A stretch of DNA of 28,085 nt from a virus: the IMG/VR virus record IMGVR_UViG_3300031227_000311, positions 1 to 28,085 of that record. One strand, written 5' to 3'. The notes under the pieces were generated by a model, which was not told the DNA's origin, did not search any database, and saw nothing but the letters and a program-made list of their open reading frames with translations. The position numbers were made by a program, and so were the translations under genes. Within the stretch, counting starts at the first letter, position 1; each line of letters begins with the position of its first letter. Shown here in pieces: positions 3,866 to 26,803 of this stretch.

Positions 3866-4606
3866 TTAATTTAAGATTTCCCTCACTATTACTGTGCCTA
3901 TTTTAAGCGTTGCTGAAACTGAGGGTGTGAATACCAAAGTACCATCTCCACCCGATGTTATTATTTCTGTATATGTTCCAGTTGCAGTTCTTGAAGTTCC
4001 ATCTGTAGTTCCAACATCAATGATTATAGACCCGTCTGTAAATGCCGATATCGTGTACTGTGTAAAATACTTCGTAGTAGCACTTAGCGGATCAGATGAT
4101 GCTTCTAAATTACCAGCAGCACCTTGACCGTCAACAACAGCAGTATTATCCTCTGGTATAGTCCAGTCTGTTCCCTTGTCCCACGATGCGTCAGTTGCAA
4201 ATGTGCCATTAACAACTAAATTTGCCCCCATAACATATACATATCCATTGAATGTAATATTGTAAGTCATAGTTGCTTCGCCTGTTACGGCTACGCTTGG
4301 TGACTTACTGTTTACGATAGCTGCTCCGTAGAACGCCCTACTTGCATCAGCTACCAACAACATATTATACGAAGTACCGAGATCAAGTCCAGTATCTCCG
4401 TCCGTATGATTGCCTATAAATGAAGCTGTTGCAGATTTAAGAACTGTCATTGTAGACTTATGCGTTGGTGCGGTTTCAAGAAATTCAGTTATGTCTATTA
4501 CGTCTGTTACGTAATCTATAGACCATTCCCTAACCGCATCCACAACAGTATCAACACCAGAGACTTGCTTTGTTACATATCCAGCTTTTCCCGTTATACT
4601 CGCCAT
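3866..4606 (-). CDS. Tail tube protein paralogue 3 with C-terminal beta-sandwich extension
   Basis: Residues 1-125 are homologous to the two genes transcribed just before it: a MASITG start, EWSIDYVTDVIDITEF, APTHKS, LKSATASFIGN, TDGDTG and a late SVAVTGEATMTYN. It is the most divergent of the three. Residues about 130-246 are unique to this copy and begin NLVVNGTFATDASWDKGTDW, a pattern like carbohydrate-binding modules of the CBM_4_9 type, followed by Thr/Ser/Gly-rich strands. A decorated tube subunit made in lesser amount, or a distal ring subunit, is plausible, but that is inference. Start ATG has ribosome site TTAGGAG. Confidence 0.7.
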   Translation of the reverse strand: MASITGKAGYVTKQVSGVDTVVDAVREWSIDYVTDVIDITEFLETAPTHKSTMTVLKSATASFIGNHTDGDTGLDLGTSYNMLLVADASRAFYGAAIVNSKSPSVAVTGEATMTYNITFNGYVYVMGANLVVNGTFATDASWDKGTDWTIPEDNTAVVDGQGAAGNLEASSDPLSATTKYFTQYTISAFTDGSIIIDVGTTDGTSRTATGTYTEIITSGGDGTLVFTPSVSATLKIGTVIVREILN

Positions 4607-4614
4607 AACATCTC

Positions 4615-5010
4615 CTAAGTATTAGTGAACGCTACGCTGCCACTTGAAATAAAGTTACAAGTAACTATGGCTTCACCACCAACTGCCACACTTGTACTTA
4701 AACCAGTAACAATAGCAACTGGGATGTCGTAAAGGTCTGTTCCATCAGTTTCTAAATGAAGATCATAAGATGACCCTAATGTTAATGCACCCAAAACGCC
4801 AGTTGCACCATCGGTAACATTACCACTAAACGAACCAGTTGCACCCTTGAGTCCCGACAACTGTGATTTATGTGTAGGTGCGGATGCAGCCATCTCTGTT
4901 ATATCAAATATGTCTACGCTGTAGTCTAACGACCACTCTTTGATACCTACAATTACTGTGCTTCCACCTGCTATTTTTACACATCCTCCTGCTCCAGTTA
5001 TACTCGCCAT
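4615..5010 (-). CDS. Tail tube (major tail) protein paralogue 2
   Basis: A 131-residue protein, closely related to its upstream neighbour. Shared blocks are TVIVGIKEWSxDYSVDxFDITE, AASAPTHK, QLSGLK, ATGSFSGNVTDGATG, an LETDGTD turn and SVAVGGEA before the last strands. Small size, near absence of Cys, and Gly/Ser/Thr-rich beta composition suit a siphovirus tube subunit, which polymerises in hexameric rings around the tape measure. Ribosome site AAGGAGGG precedes the ATG. Position between the tail terminator and the chaperone supports the role. I cannot tell which paralogue forms most of the tube. Confidence 0.72.
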   Translation of the reverse strand: MASITGAGGCVKIAGGSTVIVGIKEWSLDYSVDIFDITEMAASAPTHKSQLSGLKGATGSFSGNVTDGATGVLGALTLGSSYDLHLETDGTDLYDIPVAIVTGLSTSVAVGGEAIVTCNFISSGSVAFTNT

Positions 5011-5019
5011 TATCCCTCC

Positions 5020-5409
5020 TTATGAGAAAGTCGGTGATACATCACCACTTGATGTGAAGTTTGCGGTAACGGTAGCTTCACCACCAACTGCTACACTTAC
5101 ACTAAATCCAGTAATGTAAGCCGTCATACTATATTTGTCAGTTCCGTCAGTTTCAAGATTAAGCGTATATGATGTTCCGATCGTGAATACGCCTAATGCT
5201 CCTGTTGCTCCATCTGTTACGTTGCCGCTAAATGAACCAGTTGCCGACTTCAGCCCAGACAGTTGTGTTTTGTGAGTAGGTGCAGATGCAGCAAATTCGG
5301 TAATATCGAACATATCAACACTATAGTCTATCGACCATTCCTTGATACCGACAATAACCGTACTGTCATTTAAAACACATCCAGCTACTCCAGATATACT
5401 ATTTGCCAT
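5020..5409 (-). CDS. Tail tube (major tail) protein paralogue 1
   Basis: First of three tandem tube-like genes in transcription order, 129 residues. It shares with the next gene the long block EWSIDYSVDMFDITE, AASAPTHK, ATGSFSGNVTDGATG, and the penultimate SVAVGGEATVTANF. The spacing to the neighbours is 9-10 bp on both sides, and the ribosome site is GGAGGAA. The beta-rich fold with no charge clusters fits a tube subunit. Being first in the set and shortest, it is a reasonable candidate for the main tube protein, but this is not shown by sequence alone. Confidence 0.72.
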   Translation of the reverse strand: MANSISGVAGCVLNDSTVIVGIKEWSIDYSVDMFDITEFAASAPTHKTQLSGLKSATGSFSGNVTDGATGALGVFTIGTSYTLNLETDGTDKYSMTAYITGFSVSVAVGGEATVTANFTSSGDVSPTFS

Positions 5410-5419
5410 TATTCCTCCA

Positions 5420-14280: not shown

Positions 14281-14309
14281 ATTAAATACTAAAAAAACAG
14301 TGGTGTCAA
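14281..14309 (-). promoter_or_regulatory. Strong sigma70-type promoter for the head and tail genes
   Basis: On the minus strand TTGACA (14309-14304) is followed after exactly 17 bp by TTTAAT (14286-14281). It sits in the 112-bp gap between terminase and portal, the only sizeable gap in the structural operon, and reads toward the portal. The -35 box is embedded in a 16-bp element also found at 18491-18506 and 19359-19374. Confidence 0.6.
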
Positions 14310-14311
14310 GC

Positions 14312-15685
14312 TTAAATAAAGGGATTACTCTTTATCCATCTGACTTTAGGAACTTTGTTACCCTGTACGTATTCTGTGTAAGTTCCGTAAATAATAGCCT
14401 TAATCCCATCGTCTTTAATGTCTATTGGATCTTCTTTCACATTATGGTCTTTATCCTCTTTAAATTTGTATGAGTAGAACTCGTTCTTTAGTTTAGTGTC
14501 ACGTTCCAATAAATGGATGTTAAGCATCTTCATGAAGTCAATGGAGTCTTTAACGTAATTATTTGACTTGTAACAACCTCTTGCGTTATATCCTGCTTTC
14601 TGTAGTTCGTCTATTCTGTCGGGTTCAGCATTGTCACACCACATTGTAATATTGTAACTGACCTTCTTATCATTCATCCACTGTATGAGTTCAGCAGTAT
14701 GGTGTCCGCTTTCGTGAAACAGCAGTTCACAGTAGATACTTTTAGGTTGTTCGTTAGCATCGTCCTTCTGATACACCTTTACAAGTGCGGTAGGGTGGAC
14801 AAAACCAAAGTCAAGCCCATAATATACTTTAGACCACTCTAAATCTGGGATTTCGTGAATGATTGAGTAGTTATTGAAGATCTTGTTCTTCAAATCGGCA
14901 TATTCACCTAAACAATAGATTTTGTAGTATGATTCGTCTTTGTTAATCAATGCTTCCAGTGAAGCCACATACTGTAGGTCAAGGAATAAGTTATCTTTGT
15001 AGGTAGAGTGCAAAACTGTTTTCATACCGGTTATTTTGTGCTTTTTGCCGTTATACTCCACTTCTGTAACGGTTTTCTTACGATATGAGAGCTTTTTAGG
15101 GTTGTGATTCTCTTTATATGTCCAATTTTCCTTTGAAATGGGATTATATGAGTACATAAATTGAGCATAGTTGCCTATATCTGCCGGTTTAGCACCTCTT
15201 TTAAGCTTTAAGCTCTGTTCTGCCGATAGGTTAAATTTAGGTCTTAATCGTAGGTCTAACTGCATCATATCATCATATCCGGCTTCAGTTGACTCTTCAT
15301 ACCAGATTGAAGTGATATTCTCGATAGACTTTATCTTTTCGAGATCATCCATACCCCTGAACAGAATTTCGTTACCATTCAGGTTATTTCTGATATTCAT
15401 TGGTTTAATTGTAGTGTGGCAGTTATCTAATAGTCCCCAAACTGATAGGGTGTCTTTGATTAGTCTGAAGGCTGAAGTTTCAAGCCCTGGTGAGTATCTA
15501 CGCAAAACAAGAAATCTGTGTCCTACATCTTCTTTGAAGAAACGGTAACATAGCTTCTGTGCAGCGAACCAAGATTTTCCCGATCCGGCACTTCCGACCA
15601 TCACAAAGTAACGGTCAGTGTTCCAAAGATGGGGGTAATACTTTTTGTTAATAATCTTATCAAGTTGTGAAAATTCAATTTTCAA
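14312..15685 (-). CDS. terL: Terminase large subunit, Terminase_3 type
   Basis: This 457-residue motor packages DNA into the prohead. The ATPase domain has Walker A GSAGSGKS (residues 31-38), Walker B with catalytic Glu in IWYEE (127-131) and the motif FMYSYNP (177-182). The RNase-H-like nuclease domain shows the acidic residues GLDFGFVHP (D292), WCDNAEPDRIDEL (D351) and IDIKDDGIKA (D425/D426), so both activities appear intact. Start is a TTG at 15685, with GGAGG six bases before. Its putative small subunit is five genes upstream (16685-17188), rather than adjacent. Confidence 0.95.
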   Translation of the reverse strand: MKIEFSQLDKIINKKYYPHLWNTDRYFVMVGSAGSGKSWFAAQKLCYRFFKEDVGHRFLVLRRYSPGLETSAFRLIKDTLSVWGLLDNCHTTIKPMNIRNNLNGNEILFRGMDDLEKIKSIENITSIWYEESTEAGYDDMMQLDLRLRPKFNLSAEQSLKLKRGAKPADIGNYAQFMYSYNPISKENWTYKENHNPKKLSYRKKTVTEVEYNGKKHKITGMKTVLHSTYKDNLFLDLQYVASLEALINKDESYYKIYCLGEYADLKNKIFNNYSIIHEIPDLEWSKVYYGLDFGFVHPTALVKVYQKDDANEQPKSIYCELLFHESGHHTAELIQWMNDKKVSYNITMWCDNAEPDRIDELQKAGYNARGCYKSNNYVKDSIDFMKMLNIHLLERDTKLKNEFYSYKFKEDKDHNVKEDPIDIKDDGIKAIIYGTYTEYVQGNKVPKVRWIKSNPFI

Positions 15686-17695: not shown

Positions 17696-17705
17696 TTTTA
17701 ACTCC

Positions 17706-17732
17706 TAACCAAACTTTGTTTACTTACTTAGT
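17706..17732. repeat. 27-bp direct repeat, left copy
   Basis: Identical over all 27 bases to 18465-18491. On the minus strand it supplies the last codon-and-stop of the zinc-ribbon gene (ACT AAG TAA) and ends in GTTTGGTTA just before the ribosome site of the next gene. See the right copy for comparison. Confidence 0.9.
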
Positions 17733-18372: not shown

Positions 18373-18447
18373 TGGAGCATGGAGCAGGAATCGAACCTGC
18401 ACCTGCTGGATTACAAAACCAGTGCCCTACCATTAGGATACCCATGC
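18373..18447 (-). tRNA. tRNA-Thr (anticodon UGU) with encoded CCA
   Basis: All four arms can be drawn on the minus strand. Acceptor GCATGGG pairs with TCCATGC, followed by T73 and an encoded CCA (18375-18373). The D loop is AATGGTA; the anticodon stem CTGGT/TCCAG has a U-U mismatch at 31-39; the loop TTTGTAA places TGT at 34-36; the variable loop is CAGGT; the T arm is GCAGG TTCGATT CCTGC. It decodes ACA. Position 73 is U, whereas many bacterial tRNA-Thr have A73. It stands alone between the RepL-like gene and the small genes, inside the segment bounded by the 27-bp repeats. Confidence 0.93.
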
Positions 18448-18464
18448 TTCAAAATATTTATTCA

Positions 18465-18491
18465 TAACCAAACTTTGTTTACTTACTTAGT
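18465..18491. repeat. 27-bp direct repeat, right copy
   Basis: Identical to 17706-17732 and 759 bp away in the same orientation. On the minus strand it encodes the last residues and stop of the RepL-like gene (CTA AGT AAG TAA), in a different frame from the left copy, and ends in GTTTGGTTA 18 bp before the tRNA. A partial third copy (11 bp) is at 17472-17482. Confidence 0.9.
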
Positions 18492-18925
18492 GGAGTCAAG
18501 CTTAAAAAACCATTCTCTTCAAATAAATTCATTCTCAGCTCAGATATGTTTTTCCACGAACCTTTGCCAATGAACTCAGGATTGACTAAATAAGTGCCAC
18601 GTGATACGTTGAACAGCCACTTCTTTGTATGGAGACCCACAACACATTTATTGACTGTACCTAATGTAAAGCCACACTTCTCTGCAATACGATTCTTTAT
18701 CCCTACTGTGATGTGGACTGTGTTCTTGTAATTGATGTGCCGGCTTAATAAGAAGAATACCACGATCTCAGCTTTCGTTAAGTCTAAGAGGCGTTGGATA
18801 TGCTCCATGTAAACTTTTACATAGTAACTCTCAGGTTTGCTCTCATAGACCGAGATTGACTTTTTGGATGTTACTTCCCCGTATTGGTCAATCGTTGTTT
18901 CTTCGTGGACTTTGGATCGCTTCAA
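18479..18925 (-). CDS. RepL-like winged-helix replication initiator
   Basis: A 148-residue protein. Residues about 50-118 have the layout of RepL-type plasmid initiators: LTKAEIVVFFLLSRHINYKN, then VHITVGIKNRIAEKCGFTLGTVNKCVVGLHTKK (helix-turn-helix), then the wing RGTYLVNPEFIGKGSW, where the Y-x-V-N-P turn is characteristic. RepL proteins start rolling-circle or theta replication in small plasmids and also occur in phages. Start is TTG at 18925: AGGAAGG is next to it, and an in-frame TAA directly precedes it. Three phased palindromic repeats lie 260 bp upstream. A transcription regulator with the same fold is the alternative. Confidence 0.55.
   Translation of the reverse strand: MKRSKVHEETTIDQYGEVTSKKSISVYESKPESYYVKVYMEHIQRLLDLTKAEIVVFFLLSRHINYKNTVHITVGIKNRIAEKCGFTLGTVNKCVVGLHTKKWLFNVSRGTYLVNPEFIGKGSWKNISELRMNLFEENGFLSLTPLSK
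18491..18506. repeat. 16-bp element, copy B (TGGAGTCAAGCTTAAA)
   Basis: Identical to 19359-19374 and one base different from 14301-14316. On the minus strand all contain AAGCTTGAC. This copy lies in the last codons of the RepL-like gene and abuts the 27-bp repeat. Confidence 0.8.
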
Positions 18926-18934
18926 TTAACCTTC

Positions 18935-19114
18935 CTAAAAATATTTGCAGACTACATAGATTACCAATCTAATTATAGCCAAAACTAACACAACGATCAA
19001 AACAAAAGAAACGAATCCAAGAAGAGTGTTCGTAAATTTCTCTTCTCCGAACTTACCTAAAACCCTCTCCCACCATTCCAATACTTTACTACCAAACTTC
19101 TCAAATAAATTCAT
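18935..19114 (-). CDS. Small single-pass membrane protein (59 aa)
   Basis: ATG at 19114 follows GGGAGGAATTAG. The N-terminal 28 residues are charged and helical (MNLFEKFGSKVLEWWERVLG), and residues about 32-56 are a strong membrane segment (LLGFVSFVLIVVLVLAIIRL). The orientation looks like cytosolic N-terminus. It is the first gene of the leftward operon. Holin-like or superinfection-exclusion functions are possible given size, but nothing in the sequence decides. Confidence 0.65.
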   Translation of the reverse strand: MNLFEKFGSKVLEWWERVLGKFGEEKFTNTLLGFVSFVLIVVLVLAIIRLVIYVVCKYF

Positions 19115-19181
19115 CTAATTCCTCCCTTTCCGACTATCGCATAATAATAAGATAACAAAACACCCCAAAAACACCCAATCA

Positions 19182-19240
19182 CTACCAAGTGGGTATGAGT
19201 TTGCTACCGAGTGGGTATGCTTAAGCTACCGAGTGGGTAT
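19182..19240. repeat. Three 15-bp palindromic repeats at exact 22-bp spacing
   Basis: CTACCAAGTGGGTAT at 19182-19196, CTACCGAGTGGGTAT at 19204-19218 and 19226-19240. Each holds an imperfect palindrome TACCnAGTGGGTA with TACC/GGTA arms. Start-to-start distance is 22 bp both times, two turns of DNA, so bound proteins would lie on one face. They act either as repressor operators or as initiator iterons for the RepL-like protein. Confidence 0.85.
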
Positions 19241-19266
19241 ATGTCTCCTTCCAAAATCACTTTCAT
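19204..19266 (-). CDS. Possible 20-residue leader peptide over the phased repeats
   Basis: ATG at 19266 has AGGTGG five bases upstream and lies just after the promoter at 19279-19308. It encodes MKVILEGDIYPLGSLSIPTR, the last half of which is read through two of the palindromic repeats; the stop TAG lies in the middle repeat. It could be a regulatory leader or chance. Confidence 0.3.
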   Translation of the reverse strand: MKVILEGDIYPLGSLSIPTR

Positions 19267-19278
19267 AAATACCACCTA

Positions 19279-19308
19279 AATAAACAACTTAACTCTGCCC
19301 CCTGTCAA
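19279..19308 (-). promoter_or_regulatory. Leftward promoter upstream of the phased repeats
   Basis: Minus strand TTGACA (19308-19303), 18-bp spacer, TTTATT (19284-19279). Transcription would begin around 19272 and run through the three repeats into the membrane protein and RepL-like genes, so a protein bound there could block it. Confidence 0.45.
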
Positions 19309-19358
19309 GCAACAACTCTCTATTATATTATACTACCTAATTTGATAGTATCGCTTTA

Positions 19359-19374
19359 TGGAGTCAAGCTTAAA
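19359..19374. repeat. 16-bp element, copy C (TGGAGTCAAGCTTAAA)
   Basis: Intergenic copy of the element at 18491-18506. It has a TTGACT box on the minus strand but no good -10 box at 16-18 bp, so here it may be a protein-binding site rather than a promoter. Confidence 0.7.
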
Positions 19375-19428
19375 ATAAAACTATCTCACGAATAATAACA
19401 TTGAAATAGCGTAGATGCAGTGGTGGTA

Positions 19429-19584
19429 ATGGTTAAGGAAAATGAGAGTGTTTGGAAAAAGGGTAAAATTGTGCGGGGCGATACCGAGCCTTCATTTCGT
19501 CTTCTTTTGGGAACTTTAGACCCCCCTGGGTTGTCCAGTAAACGTCAAGCAACAGACGCAGCTTTAATGTATATCCTTTATTAA
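19429..19584 (+). CDS. Possible small ORF (51 aa) in the control region
   Basis: ATG at 19429 with GGTGGTA upstream. The product begins MVKENESVWKKGKIVRGDTE and ends with a SSKRQATDAALMYILY segment. Composition is protein-like and basic, but the ribosome site is weak, and the frame overlaps a leftward promoter. It may be a true small gene or an accidental frame. Confidence 0.3.
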   Translation: MVKENESVWKKGKIVRGDTEPSFRLLLGTLDPPGLSSKRQATDAALMYILY

Positions 19585-19607
19585 TCACTGTTTACAGCCC
19601 CAGTCAA
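19578..19607 (-). promoter_or_regulatory. Leftward promoter with CTGTAAACAG in its spacer
   Basis: Minus strand TTGACT (19607-19602), 18-bp spacer, TAATAA (19583-19578). The spacer includes CTGTAAACAG, which shares nine bases with the operator in the other leftward promoter (26977-27005), suggesting a common regulator. Confidence 0.4.
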
Positions 19608-19858
19608 TAATATATCATAAATTATTACCCCCATTTTAGCACTGATCAGGTCAATATTATTAGAATGGTGATTCTATAATGAGTCATGCGTAACGGCTCT
19701 CGATCCGGTCATGCTACCATTGCACCCATCACCGCAACAATCTACTTGCACATTTAGCCAATTACCTACATTATTATTGTCGTCTCACCACTAACGACAG
19801 ATTGCTACATTAATATAATTTATCTATAAAATAAAAGTCACTTATTATTAATTAATAC

Positions 19859-19886
19859 TTGACACTAATTATGCCGGTATTAGTTT
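19859..19886 (+). promoter_or_regulatory. Rightward promoter for the plus-strand block
   Basis: TTGACA at 19859-19864 and TAGTTT at 19881-19886, a 16-bp spacer. The -10 is poor for sigma70; read as a Bacteroidetes-type -7 box (TAnnTTTG), TAGTTTAG at 19881-19888 differs at one position. The first gene starts 30 bp downstream. Confidence 0.4.
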
Positions 19887-19917
19887 AGGCAATGTGATTA
19901 AAAAGAAAGGGGGTCAC

Positions 19918-21389: not shown

Positions 21390-22412
21390 ATGACAGTACC
21401 AAAGTATCTAACCAAGATCAATGCTTTAAAGCGGCTCAAACTACGAGCCAGGAAGGTGAAAGGCGGCTACTCTCTATACCTTGACACAATCCTGAATGGA
21501 CACCGTGAGAGGCTGACGCTCAAGATTGAGATTAGTAATGTAAAGGACAAGATGTTTATTTATGCAGTAGCTTTACGAGATCGCAAGGAGCTGGAACTGT
21601 TGCAGGATCAAAACGGGTTCAGGCTATACCGGCAACAAGTTGTTTTAACCGACTACTTCAAGCAGAACGGAACAACAGCGAATCGGGGATCGGTTCAGAG
21701 GTACATTGACGGTTTCTATATAGGGCGTAAAATAGCGGGGGAAATTTCCGAATCTGATATAAGAGCATGGAAGGATTATTTATTGGAACACATTTCACCC
21801 ATGACGGCTAAAACATATTTACAAATACTAAGAACTTGTTTCAATAAAGCCGTTAGGGAGCAATTAATCACCTCGAATCCTTGCGATAATGTCCACGTTA
21901 AGGCAAAGGCAGCCAGGAAGGAATTTCTTAACTTAGAGGAGCTTAAAAAGTTAGTGGGAACTCCGTGTCGTAATGAAGAAGTTAAACGAGCATTTATATT
22001 CAGTTGCCTCACCGGAATAAGATTCTCGGATCTGAACCGGATAACCAAGCACGACATCAATGATAATATATTGACTTTCAGACAACAAAAGACTCAGGAT
22101 GTAATATCGGTCCCATTAAATGAGAAAGCCCGCCAGATTGCAGAAATGACACCTTCAGTTAAATTATTCACACTACCATCGATCAAGACTTACCTTAAAA
22201 TATTAAAGTCTTGGGTTAAGGCTGCGGATATTACCAAGAAAGTTACTTCTCATGTTGGTAGGGTTTCGTTCGCCACTATGTTGCTATCCAATAATGTTTC
22301 AAGCTATACTGTATCTCAGTTATTAGGACACCGAAGTTTGACCTCGATAACACCTTATGCTAACTTGGTGGATCAGAAGAGAGTGGATGCTATTAAGTTG
22401 TTGCCCCTATAA
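21390..22412 (+). CDS. int: Tyrosine-family integrase
   Basis: A 340-residue phage integrase catalysing site-specific recombination between attP and attB. Catalytic residues are all present: Arg211 in TGIRFSDL, Lys234 in RQQKTQD, His288 and Arg291 in SHVGRVSFATMLLS, His314 in LLGHRSL, and nucleophile Tyr323 in TPYANLVD. Residues about 1-60 form an arm-binding domain and 80-175 the core-binding SAM-like domain. The catalytic sequences resemble Bacteroidetes/Chlorobi integrases. Strong ribosome site AAAGGAGG. It converges with the operon ending at 22436, and no hairpin is visible in the 23-bp gap. Confidence 0.95.
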   Translation: MTVPKYLTKINALKRLKLRARKVKGGYSLYLDTILNGHRERLTLKIEISNVKDKMFIYAVALRDRKELELLQDQNGFRLYRQQVVLTDYFKQNGTTANRGSVQRYIDGFYIGRKIAGEISESDIRAWKDYLLEHISPMTAKTYLQILRTCFNKAVREQLITSNPCDNVHVKAKAARKEFLNLEELKKLVGTPCRNEEVKRAFIFSCLTGIRFSDLNRITKHDINDNILTFRQQKTQDVISVPLNEKARQIAEMTPSVKLFTLPSIKTYLKILKSWVKAADITKKVTSHVGRVSFATMLLSNNVSSYTVSQLLGHRSLTSITPYANLVDQKRVDAIKLLPL

Positions 22413-23753: not shown

Positions 23754-24611
23754 TCAGCTCCTTAGTTTATTAAATTCAGTTACAGCTTGATCCAATCTTA
23801 TATTCTGGTTTATAAATGCGTATGCCAGATCTTTAATCTCTCTTGAATATGGTAGAAGTGAGTCTTTTGCTTTCTGCTGGTAGGGCTTGTAGTAATCAAT
23901 AAAAGCCCCGAAGTCTTTAAATGAAGATAGCACTTTGTATTCTGGTCTGGTAGTTTCATCTGTCATATTATACCTCTGCTTTTTAGTGTATCGATTCAGG
24001 AATGTTCCTAACCGCTTTCCCATATCAAAGAATCTCTCATTTTCATATCGAAATGTTTTGCCTGTTTTATTCAGCTCAGTCCAGTAACCTATAAATTCAG
24101 ATTCTACAGGTTTATATTTAAGGTTTTCTTGCACATAATCTTTTACGGTCTTTTTGAAGGTTTCAATTCTGTGCGATATGTCTTTATTCTTATCATTCTT
24201 TACTTCTTTATTTATTATAGTGTTGTTAGTTGTTTGTTGATTGTTTGTTAGTTGTTTGTTAGTTTGCTTGTTAATCTGCTTGTTAGTTTTGTTTTCCTTA
24301 ATCTGGTAACTGTTGTAATTGCAGATAGTTATTATGCTAAATTTGTTTGTTGATTCGCTTGTTAATTCGCCTGTTGATTTTAGCCTTTTTATGTAAGTGC
24401 GAATGGATTGCTCTGAAATTCCGGTATGCTTATGTAATGCCTTAATACTGGTAGGTAATTGTCCCGTTTGGATCATCCTTCCCTCAAAGTTATTTGGCAC
24501 ATGGTTAGCGTTAATTAATAGATATATGAATAGGTGAACCATATCTGATTTATGAAACCATTCCCAATTTTCAAATTTCTTATGAAGTTTAATCCAGCCG
24601 ACTTTCTTCAT
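23754..24611 (-). CDS. Replication initiator / helicase-loader-type protein (O-like)
   Basis: A 285-residue protein. Residues 1-105 form a winged-helix domain as in phage replication initiators (WIKLHKKFENWEWF, GQLPTSIKALHKHTGISEQS, IRTYIKRLKSTGEL, FSIITICNYNSYQ). Residues about 107-131 are low-complexity Asn/Thr/Lys/Gln repeats encoded by tandem DNA repeats. The C-terminal part (FKKTVKDYVQENL, then NERFFDMGKRLGTFLNRYTK) is helical, as in domains that recruit the helicase. This modular plan, with origin repeats in the middle of the gene, is known from lambda O. No ATPase motif. Adjacent genes in this operon are small and unknown. Confidence 0.65.
   Translation of the reverse strand: MKKVGWIKLHKKFENWEWFHKSDMVHLFIYLLINANHVPNNFEGRMIQTGQLPTSIKALHKHTGISEQSIRTYIKRLKSTGELTSESTNKFSIITICNYNSYQIKENKTNKQINKQTNKQLTNNQQTTNNTIINKEVKNDKNKDISHRIETFKKTVKDYVQENLKYKPVESEFIGYWTELNKTGKTFRYENERFFDMGKRLGTFLNRYTKKQRYNMTDETTRPEYKVLSSFKDFGAFIDYYKPYQQKAKDSLLPYSREIKDLAYAFINQNIRLDQAVTEFNKLRS
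24222..24290 (-). repeat. Tandem 11-12-bp repeats inside the replication initiator gene
   Basis: The minus strand carries about six units built on ACTAACAAACA with variants ATTAACAAGCA and ATCAACAAACA. They encode the Asn/Gln/Thr-rich linker. Position within an initiator gene makes them candidate initiator-binding iterons. Confidence 0.65.
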
Positions 24612-26068: not shown

Positions 26069-26803
26069 TTAAAATTCAAATTTATTCTGTTCTTTCTTTG
26101 CAAGGTGCTTTCTTTTAGAATCTCCACTAATCCACCATTCATAAACATCTTCTCTGTCATCAAAATCGCTGAACTTACCCATATCTATAAGCTTTTGTAT
26201 TGTATTCAGATAAGCAACCTTGTGTTGTTTCCATCTATCAAACTCGTATAAATGTTGATTATATGTGTGCATTGGGCAACCTATACAGCCTATTCTCAGA
26301 AACCCTTCATCATATAATTTGCAATATGGAAGATTATTATTCCTAATGAAATTCCACACATCATTTTCAGACCATTTAAAGATAGGGTGGACAAATGACT
26401 TCCCCCTATTCCCTTCCTCGGTTTCTTCACGCTTTGCTCTATTAGGTGATTCCTTTGCACGTATGCCAGTGATAACTGTTTCATCAGTTCCGAGATGTTC
26501 TTTAAGATTTTTACAGCAGAACTTTATCCTACGGGTAGGCAACATCTTTTCTTTAACTATAAGCTGATACATTGTCAGTTCAGGTCTATGCCAGATAACG
26601 TCTTTATGATACCCCCTAATGAAGTCCAATAGTTCAGGTGGGTCAATGCTTGTTCTTGCGAAGTGAGAAGTATGCTTCACTCCTGAACGAATGACTAATT
26701 CCTTTATGACTACAGAGTCTTTACCGCCAGAGAAAGCTACGTGATAACCTTCTGGCGGTTCGTTGTCTTGGATTAGCTTAACTGATTCATCTACAAGATT
26801 CAT
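26069..26803 (-). CDS. PAPS-reductase-like PP-loop protein
   Basis: A 244-residue member of the phosphoadenosine-phosphosulfate reductase/sulfotransferase fold. The PP-loop is SGGKDS (residues 25-30). Cys96-Cys97 lie in RRIKFCCK, Arg-rich GIRAKES follows at 113-119, and Cys173 and Cys176 in CIGCP give a likely Fe-S cluster. Related enzymes act in sulfate activation, DNA phosphorothioation (DndC-like) and tRNA thiolation. Phage homologues of this family are common, and their substrate is unclear. It is the first gene of the leftward operon, behind the operator-promoter at 26977-27005. Confidence 0.85.
   Translation of the reverse strand: MNLVDESVKLIQDNEPPEGYHVAFSGGKDSVVIKELVIRSGVKHTSHFARTSIDPPELLDFIRGYHKDVIWHRPELTMYQLIVKEKMLPTRRIKFCCKNLKEHLGTDETVITGIRAKESPNRAKREETEEGNRGKSFVHPIFKWSENDVWNFIRNNNLPYCKLYDEGFLRIGCIGCPMHTYNQHLYEFDRWKQHKVAYLNTIQKLIDMGKFSDFDDREDVYEWWISGDSKRKHLAKKEQNKFEF

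Follow-up and report, generated by a model that had tools for sequence, protein, structure and literature searches.

An uncultivated, integrase-bearing tailed phage probably carries a compact RepL-type replicon, in which a RepL-family protein would bind an array of three phased repeats, initiate replication and repress its own operon. The window analysed here is the whole IMG/VR virus record IMGVR_UViG_3300031227_000311, a linear sequence of 28,085 bases with 37% GC and without end repeats. Its genes, as assigned with Pfam and PHROG, include those for a terminase, a tape-measure protein, a tyrosine integrase and a DnaD-like helicase loader, and a terminase search returned remote phages only. 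A contig from a second metagenome (L002) represents the same virus, being 99.8% identical over 8.4 kb with no mismatch in the first 1500 bases, and both the array and repL are unchanged in it.

The repL gene (18479..18925, minus strand) starts with TTG and encodes a 148-aa winged-helix protein of the RepL family. The product matches PF05732 near full length (profile positions 13-128 of 164) at E 6.7e-11, with a score of 42.4 bits (cut-off 20.3), and contains NPEFIGKG, an instance of the NPx5G motif described for RepL in PMC5779722. The original prediction had taken the gene for RepL, with a MarR-like regulator as the competing assignment; the profile match and the motif bear it out, and no MarR-family Pfam profile matches the protein at E up to 10. 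The AF2 model, only moderate given its pLDDT of 65, is a winged helix with weak fold matches to MarR/SarZ regulators (TM 0.33-0.43) and to viral replication proteins, crAss-like ones among them. A PDB sequence search gave no match. Remote relatives of RepL, at ~22-33% identity, occur in Sodalis phage phiSG1, Erwinia phage LS-2018a, a Klebsiella Slopekvirus, and Priestia, Campylobacter and enterobacterial plasmids. Close relatives were absent from a protein search of genome contigs, and a Firmicute RepL alignment used as query returned no viral relatives. Chromosomal PF05732 matches in 399 related-phylum genomes mostly cover the HTH part alone.

Upstream of repL in its direction of transcription, as the original prediction had it, three TACC-N5-GGTA repeats stand exactly 22 bp apart at 19182-19240. 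The unit is TACC(A/G)AGTGGGTA, with starts at 19183, 19205 and 19227. Copy 1 is TACCAAGTGGGTA (19183..19195) and copies 2 and 3 are TACCGAGTGGGTA (19205..19217 and 19227..19239), each 22 bp from the one before and with no strand assigned. Among the window's direct-repeat arrays of period 9-40, this one ranks first with 34/44 matches, whereas the best of 200 shuffles (first-order Markov samples of the whole window) reached 29; a chance origin is unlikely. Tandem Repeats Finder likewise gives the array the top score in the window (83). The full motif has no further occurrence in the window, and an exact-motif scan of viral contigs matched only the near-identical L002. Adjoining the array, AT content is 68-69% at 19250-19400.

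A period scan of the 520 bp upstream of repL at 30 loci from phages, plasmids and genomes, partly non-independent (e.g., L004/L133, L121/L130, L078/L125/L126 and L116/L132), places this spacing in a family-wide pattern. Period 22 is dominant, with a mean z of 6.32 against 1.44 at 21 and about 1 or less elsewhere, the shuffles behind the z-scores being first-order Markov samples. At the same period, repL coding sequence gives a z of -0.53, and in 155 windows taken from elsewhere in these loci the mean is 0.08, with z of 3.9 or more in 2 of them; these two controls rule out a coding-period artefact as the source. By our own grouping, 22 is the single best period in ~14 separate lineages whose repeat units are unrelated. 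In most of the first nine loci, direct repeats of differing sequence recur every 22 bp or close to it (or every 44), and the arrays comprise 12 copies in Erwinia phage LS-2018a, three in phiSG1, four in the Slopekvirus and three or four in the Priestia plasmids. Steps of 22/21 bp are found in Campylobacter fetus, and 21 bp is favoured at L085, L120, L123 and L124, a preference shown by Campylobacter conjugative plasmids and phage HS5. No clear 21-22-bp array was found upstream of repL at L079, L091, L134 or L119, the last of which, a Vibrio phage, has three TACC...AGTA sites that are not regularly arrayed. As a separate observation, the T4-like Slopekvirus Klebsiella phage KP13MC5-1 (L078, 1088-1591) has a RepL gene and a 22-bp array whose counterparts on small E. 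coli plasmids (L126, pKMi025_4) are nearly identical, which suggests either a recent move from plasmid to phage or an assembly chimera.

The repeat units at RepL loci are odd-gapped palindromes of lineage-specific sequence, and several share the TACY...RGTA half-sites of the window array. Palindromes with 4-bp arms recur 22 bp apart with gaps of 5, 7 and 9 at 10-13 loci each; such pairs number 29, 47 and 27, respectively, against 0-7 for every other tabulated combination. The half-sites are enriched at distant RepL genes: TACYN7RGTA is present upstream 26 times, spread over nine loci (0.89 expected). TACYN5RGTA, seen in the window and a cyanobacterial plasmid, occurs six times (0.87 expected), and control gaps of 4, 6, 9 and 12 give 0-2 occurrences, about the expected number. 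Because tests on single arrays are mostly not significant, the palindrome claim rests on the pooled family test. The earlier description of 22-bp-phased palindromic repeats therefore stands for the spacing within the window itself, and its palindromic part, 4+4 bp arms around 5 bp, stands in the pooled test but not for this array alone (p 0.65). Given the family-wide pitch and the shared half-sites, the repeats at 19182-19240 are most likely the iterons, or predicted binding array, of the window RepL and not operators of an unrelated repressor. The proposed pairing of RepL with iterons was thus well founded, in family, in the lack of a MarR-family Pfam match and in an array architecture like that at other RepL genes.

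Between the array and repL lies a 59-aa ORF (18935..19114, minus strand) with no Pfam or PHROG family and one membrane span predicted by eye. It is probably in the same operon as repL, and its presence sets the array ~255-320 bp from the repL start. The first codons of this ORF (MNLFEKFG, 19091-19114) resemble the repL 3' end (MNLFEENG, 18509-18532), with 83% identity over 24 nt. A candidate 20-codon ORF (MKVILEGDIYPLGSLSIPTR; 19204..19266, minus strand), read from L002 positions 181-243, which are identical to the window, overlaps two iterons and may be a leader ORF. Upstream of the array is a -35-like element, TTTAAGCTTGACTCCA (19359..19374, minus strand), one of three minus-strand occurrences of TTTAAGCTTGAC(A/T)CCA in the window; the others, at 14301-14316 and 18491-18506, precede the portal gene and tRNA-Thr, respectively. 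Two of these copies form direct repeats flanking the repL module, and the TTGACA upstream of the portal gene (14301) is kept in L008, a 75%-identical relative. All three copies probably mark phage promoters that have an extended -35 in common, and the 19359-19374 region is likely the promoter region of the repL operon, with no good -10 element near it. Since the TTGACW element precedes the array, has copies before the tRNA and the portal gene and is kept as TTGACA in the relative, the array is probably located in the operon leader. The repL gene heads this leftward operon, which leads toward the late genes, rather than the replication gene cluster, a point against the replicon reading. Downstream of repL is a tRNA-Thr(TGT) gene (18373..18447, minus strand; ARAGORN and Rfam). 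A 30-bp repeat (ACTAAGTAAGTAAACAAAGTTTGGTTA, minus strand, 97% identical) at 17698-17732 and 18457-18491 precedes a small gene and this tRNA.

Known systems share parts of this arrangement. Sodalis phage phiSG1 gp23 and its kin (Erwinia phage LS-2018a, Arsenophonus plasmids) also have a 22-bp-pitch palindrome array upstream of a RepL-family gene, with TACTC...GAGTA sites in phiSG1. However, these proteins are only 25-30% identical to the window RepL, and what follows repL is recombination genes, RecE/RecT-like in phiSG1 and a PD-(D/E)XK nuclease in the plasmids, rather than a tRNA and leftward late genes. RepL plasmids of Priestia, enterobacteria (2.3-2.4 kb), S. mutans (pMut2) and the pNE131/pSN2 family share the PF05732 protein, phased upstream repeats and, in most, NPx5G, but they are free plasmids and their array sequences differ. 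Campylobacter RepL plasmids (pCFF04554, pCC42) are nearest to the window RepL in the tree, with modest support (84/64), although their RepL proteins are much longer and a 21-bp pitch is favoured in C. coli and C. jejuni; a Campylobacter RepL plasmid has been said to lack iterons (PMC11389370). For Paracoccus pMOS6, a single RepL-family Rep was reported to be sufficient for replication, with iteron-like repeats upstream (PMC3832669). These are two 18-bp repeats 3 bp apart, a 21-bp pitch, so that pMOS6 differs from the window in being a plasmid with two copies only and an unlike sequence. Phage P1 RepL has the gene name and the phage-plasmid context in common with the window protein; P1 gave no PF05732 match at E 0.1, in a search that did not pick up the divergent RepLs of HS5 and Vibrio either. 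Phage crAss001 gave no PF05732 match.

We infer that the window RepL recognises and binds the three TACC-N5-GGTA sites, probably acting as a dimer of winged-helix subunits. Their spacing of two helical turns puts the sites on the same DNA face, so that RepL dimers would be aligned along it, as in iteron origins. The bound array would then nucleate strand opening and helicase loading at or beside it, in a theta-type, iteron-like initiation, and RepL on the array would also repress the operon from which it is made. Less certain is that RepL starts replication here rather than only regulating its operon. Tiny plasmids in which RepL is the sole recognisable replication gene (L126, L127 and L129) have such arrays, which favours an initiator, whereas the RepL loci without an array or with a 21-bp pitch, and the absence of a consensus DnaA box from 19000-19900, count against one. 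Against the theta-type step, a 2017 review files RepL plasmids as rolling-circle, with copy control not identified or studied in detail (PMC5703833); RepL plasmids have also been described as of unknown mechanism (PMC5779722). A study of pBAS2 saw neither an obvious nick site nor a single-stranded intermediate (PMC5779722).

The window also contains the two genes that the original prediction placed beside repL: a tyrosine integrase (21390..22412, plus strand; PF00589 E 1.4e-16, phrog_1 E 3.4e-44) and a separate replication gene for the DnaD-like helicase loader, or O-like protein (23754..24611, minus strand; phrog_2514 E 1.6e-26). Inside the latter, direct repeats of 11-bp period at 24209-24285 score 32/44, above the shuffle maximum of 29, and form the only other window array scoring 31 or more. 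Because the coding sequence here is of low complexity, with many Asn, Lys and Gln residues encoded, they are only a candidate origin, possibly an in-gene lytic origin and possibly a low-complexity coding effect. Should both arrays prove real, there would be two replication modules in this phage. A broader proposal, less likely than not, is that RepL is a family of iteron-binding theta-type initiators with a conserved 22-bp pitch, not rolling-circle proteins, and that this phage uses its module as a second, plasmid-like origin beside a DnaD-type lytic origin.

Compatible with a RepL replicon, though doubtful, is a phage-plasmid lifestyle, in which the replicon would keep the prophage extrachromosomal and the tyrosine recombinase would mainly resolve multimers. 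Phage-plasmids that use RepL include Carjivirus communis, a crAssphage proposed as a phage-plasmid in work cited in PMC11652158. RepL and an Xer-like recombinase occur together on pBAS2, as noted also for Sodalis (PMC5779722), and the putative second origin in the DnaD-like gene is in keeping with this lifestyle. The recombinase, however, resembles an integrase (weak Arm-DNA-bind_5 and SAM_5 domains), and the proteins scanned with Pfam and PHROG included no recognisable partition gene. Phage structural genes are present, and the plasmid replicon is present by sequence only. On circularity, a point that the original prediction had raised, no circular junction was found: the record is a linear fragment without terminal repeats, and a search for contigs joining its ends yielded only one that runs 765 bp beyond the left end. 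This extension lies within an open frame and does not meet the right end, so the record is incomplete.

An unlikely alternative is that RepL acts as a transcription regulator only, the three sites being operators of its own operon (the membrane ORF and repL, possibly with the tRNA and late genes) and the DnaD-like loader initiating replication at another place. The array does sit between the promoter-like element and the operon, the weak fold matches include MarR/SarZ regulators, and a separate loader gene is present; RepL is not strictly needed in a phage with another replication gene. The island of the RepL-annotated SEN1990, moreover, replicates without that protein (PMC10655114), but the window RepL retains the conserved NP, which is missing from SEN1990, and plasmids whose only recognisable replication gene is RepL have the same array layout. 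That the repeats are another phage repressor's operators, near repL by accident, is highly improbable: the array does lie between divergent transcription units, the usual site of phage repressor action, and an immunity repressor may have escaped recognition, as none was recognised among the proteins scanned with Pfam and PHROG, but a chance match to both the pitch and the half-sites of RepL arrays would be needed, and the full motif is confined to this array.

RepL phages and phage-plasmids are already known (phiSG1; Carjivirus communis, cited in PMC11652158), and repeats near a RepL gene had been described in a single case, pMOS6, with its 21-bp pitch (PMC3832669). A family-wide 22-bp rule was not stated in the open-licence papers searched; its novelty is thus provisional, subscription papers lying outside that search. 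RepL is a widespread replicon type, found in pSN2-family plasmids, tiny enterobacterial plasmids and crAssphage. The 22-bp spacing beside most of the distant repL genes examined suggests how RepL may find its origin and yields a testable model, with RepL on phased palindromes along one helix face. The array can also serve as a sequence test for RepL origins and for functional RepLs in phages. Elsewhere in the window, the phage encodes a phosphoadenosine phosphosulfate reductase-family protein (26069-26803, minus strand; PF01507 E 1.1e-26), and a tandem duplication at 4563-5418 has given two neighbouring ~130-aa genes with ~70% DNA identity.
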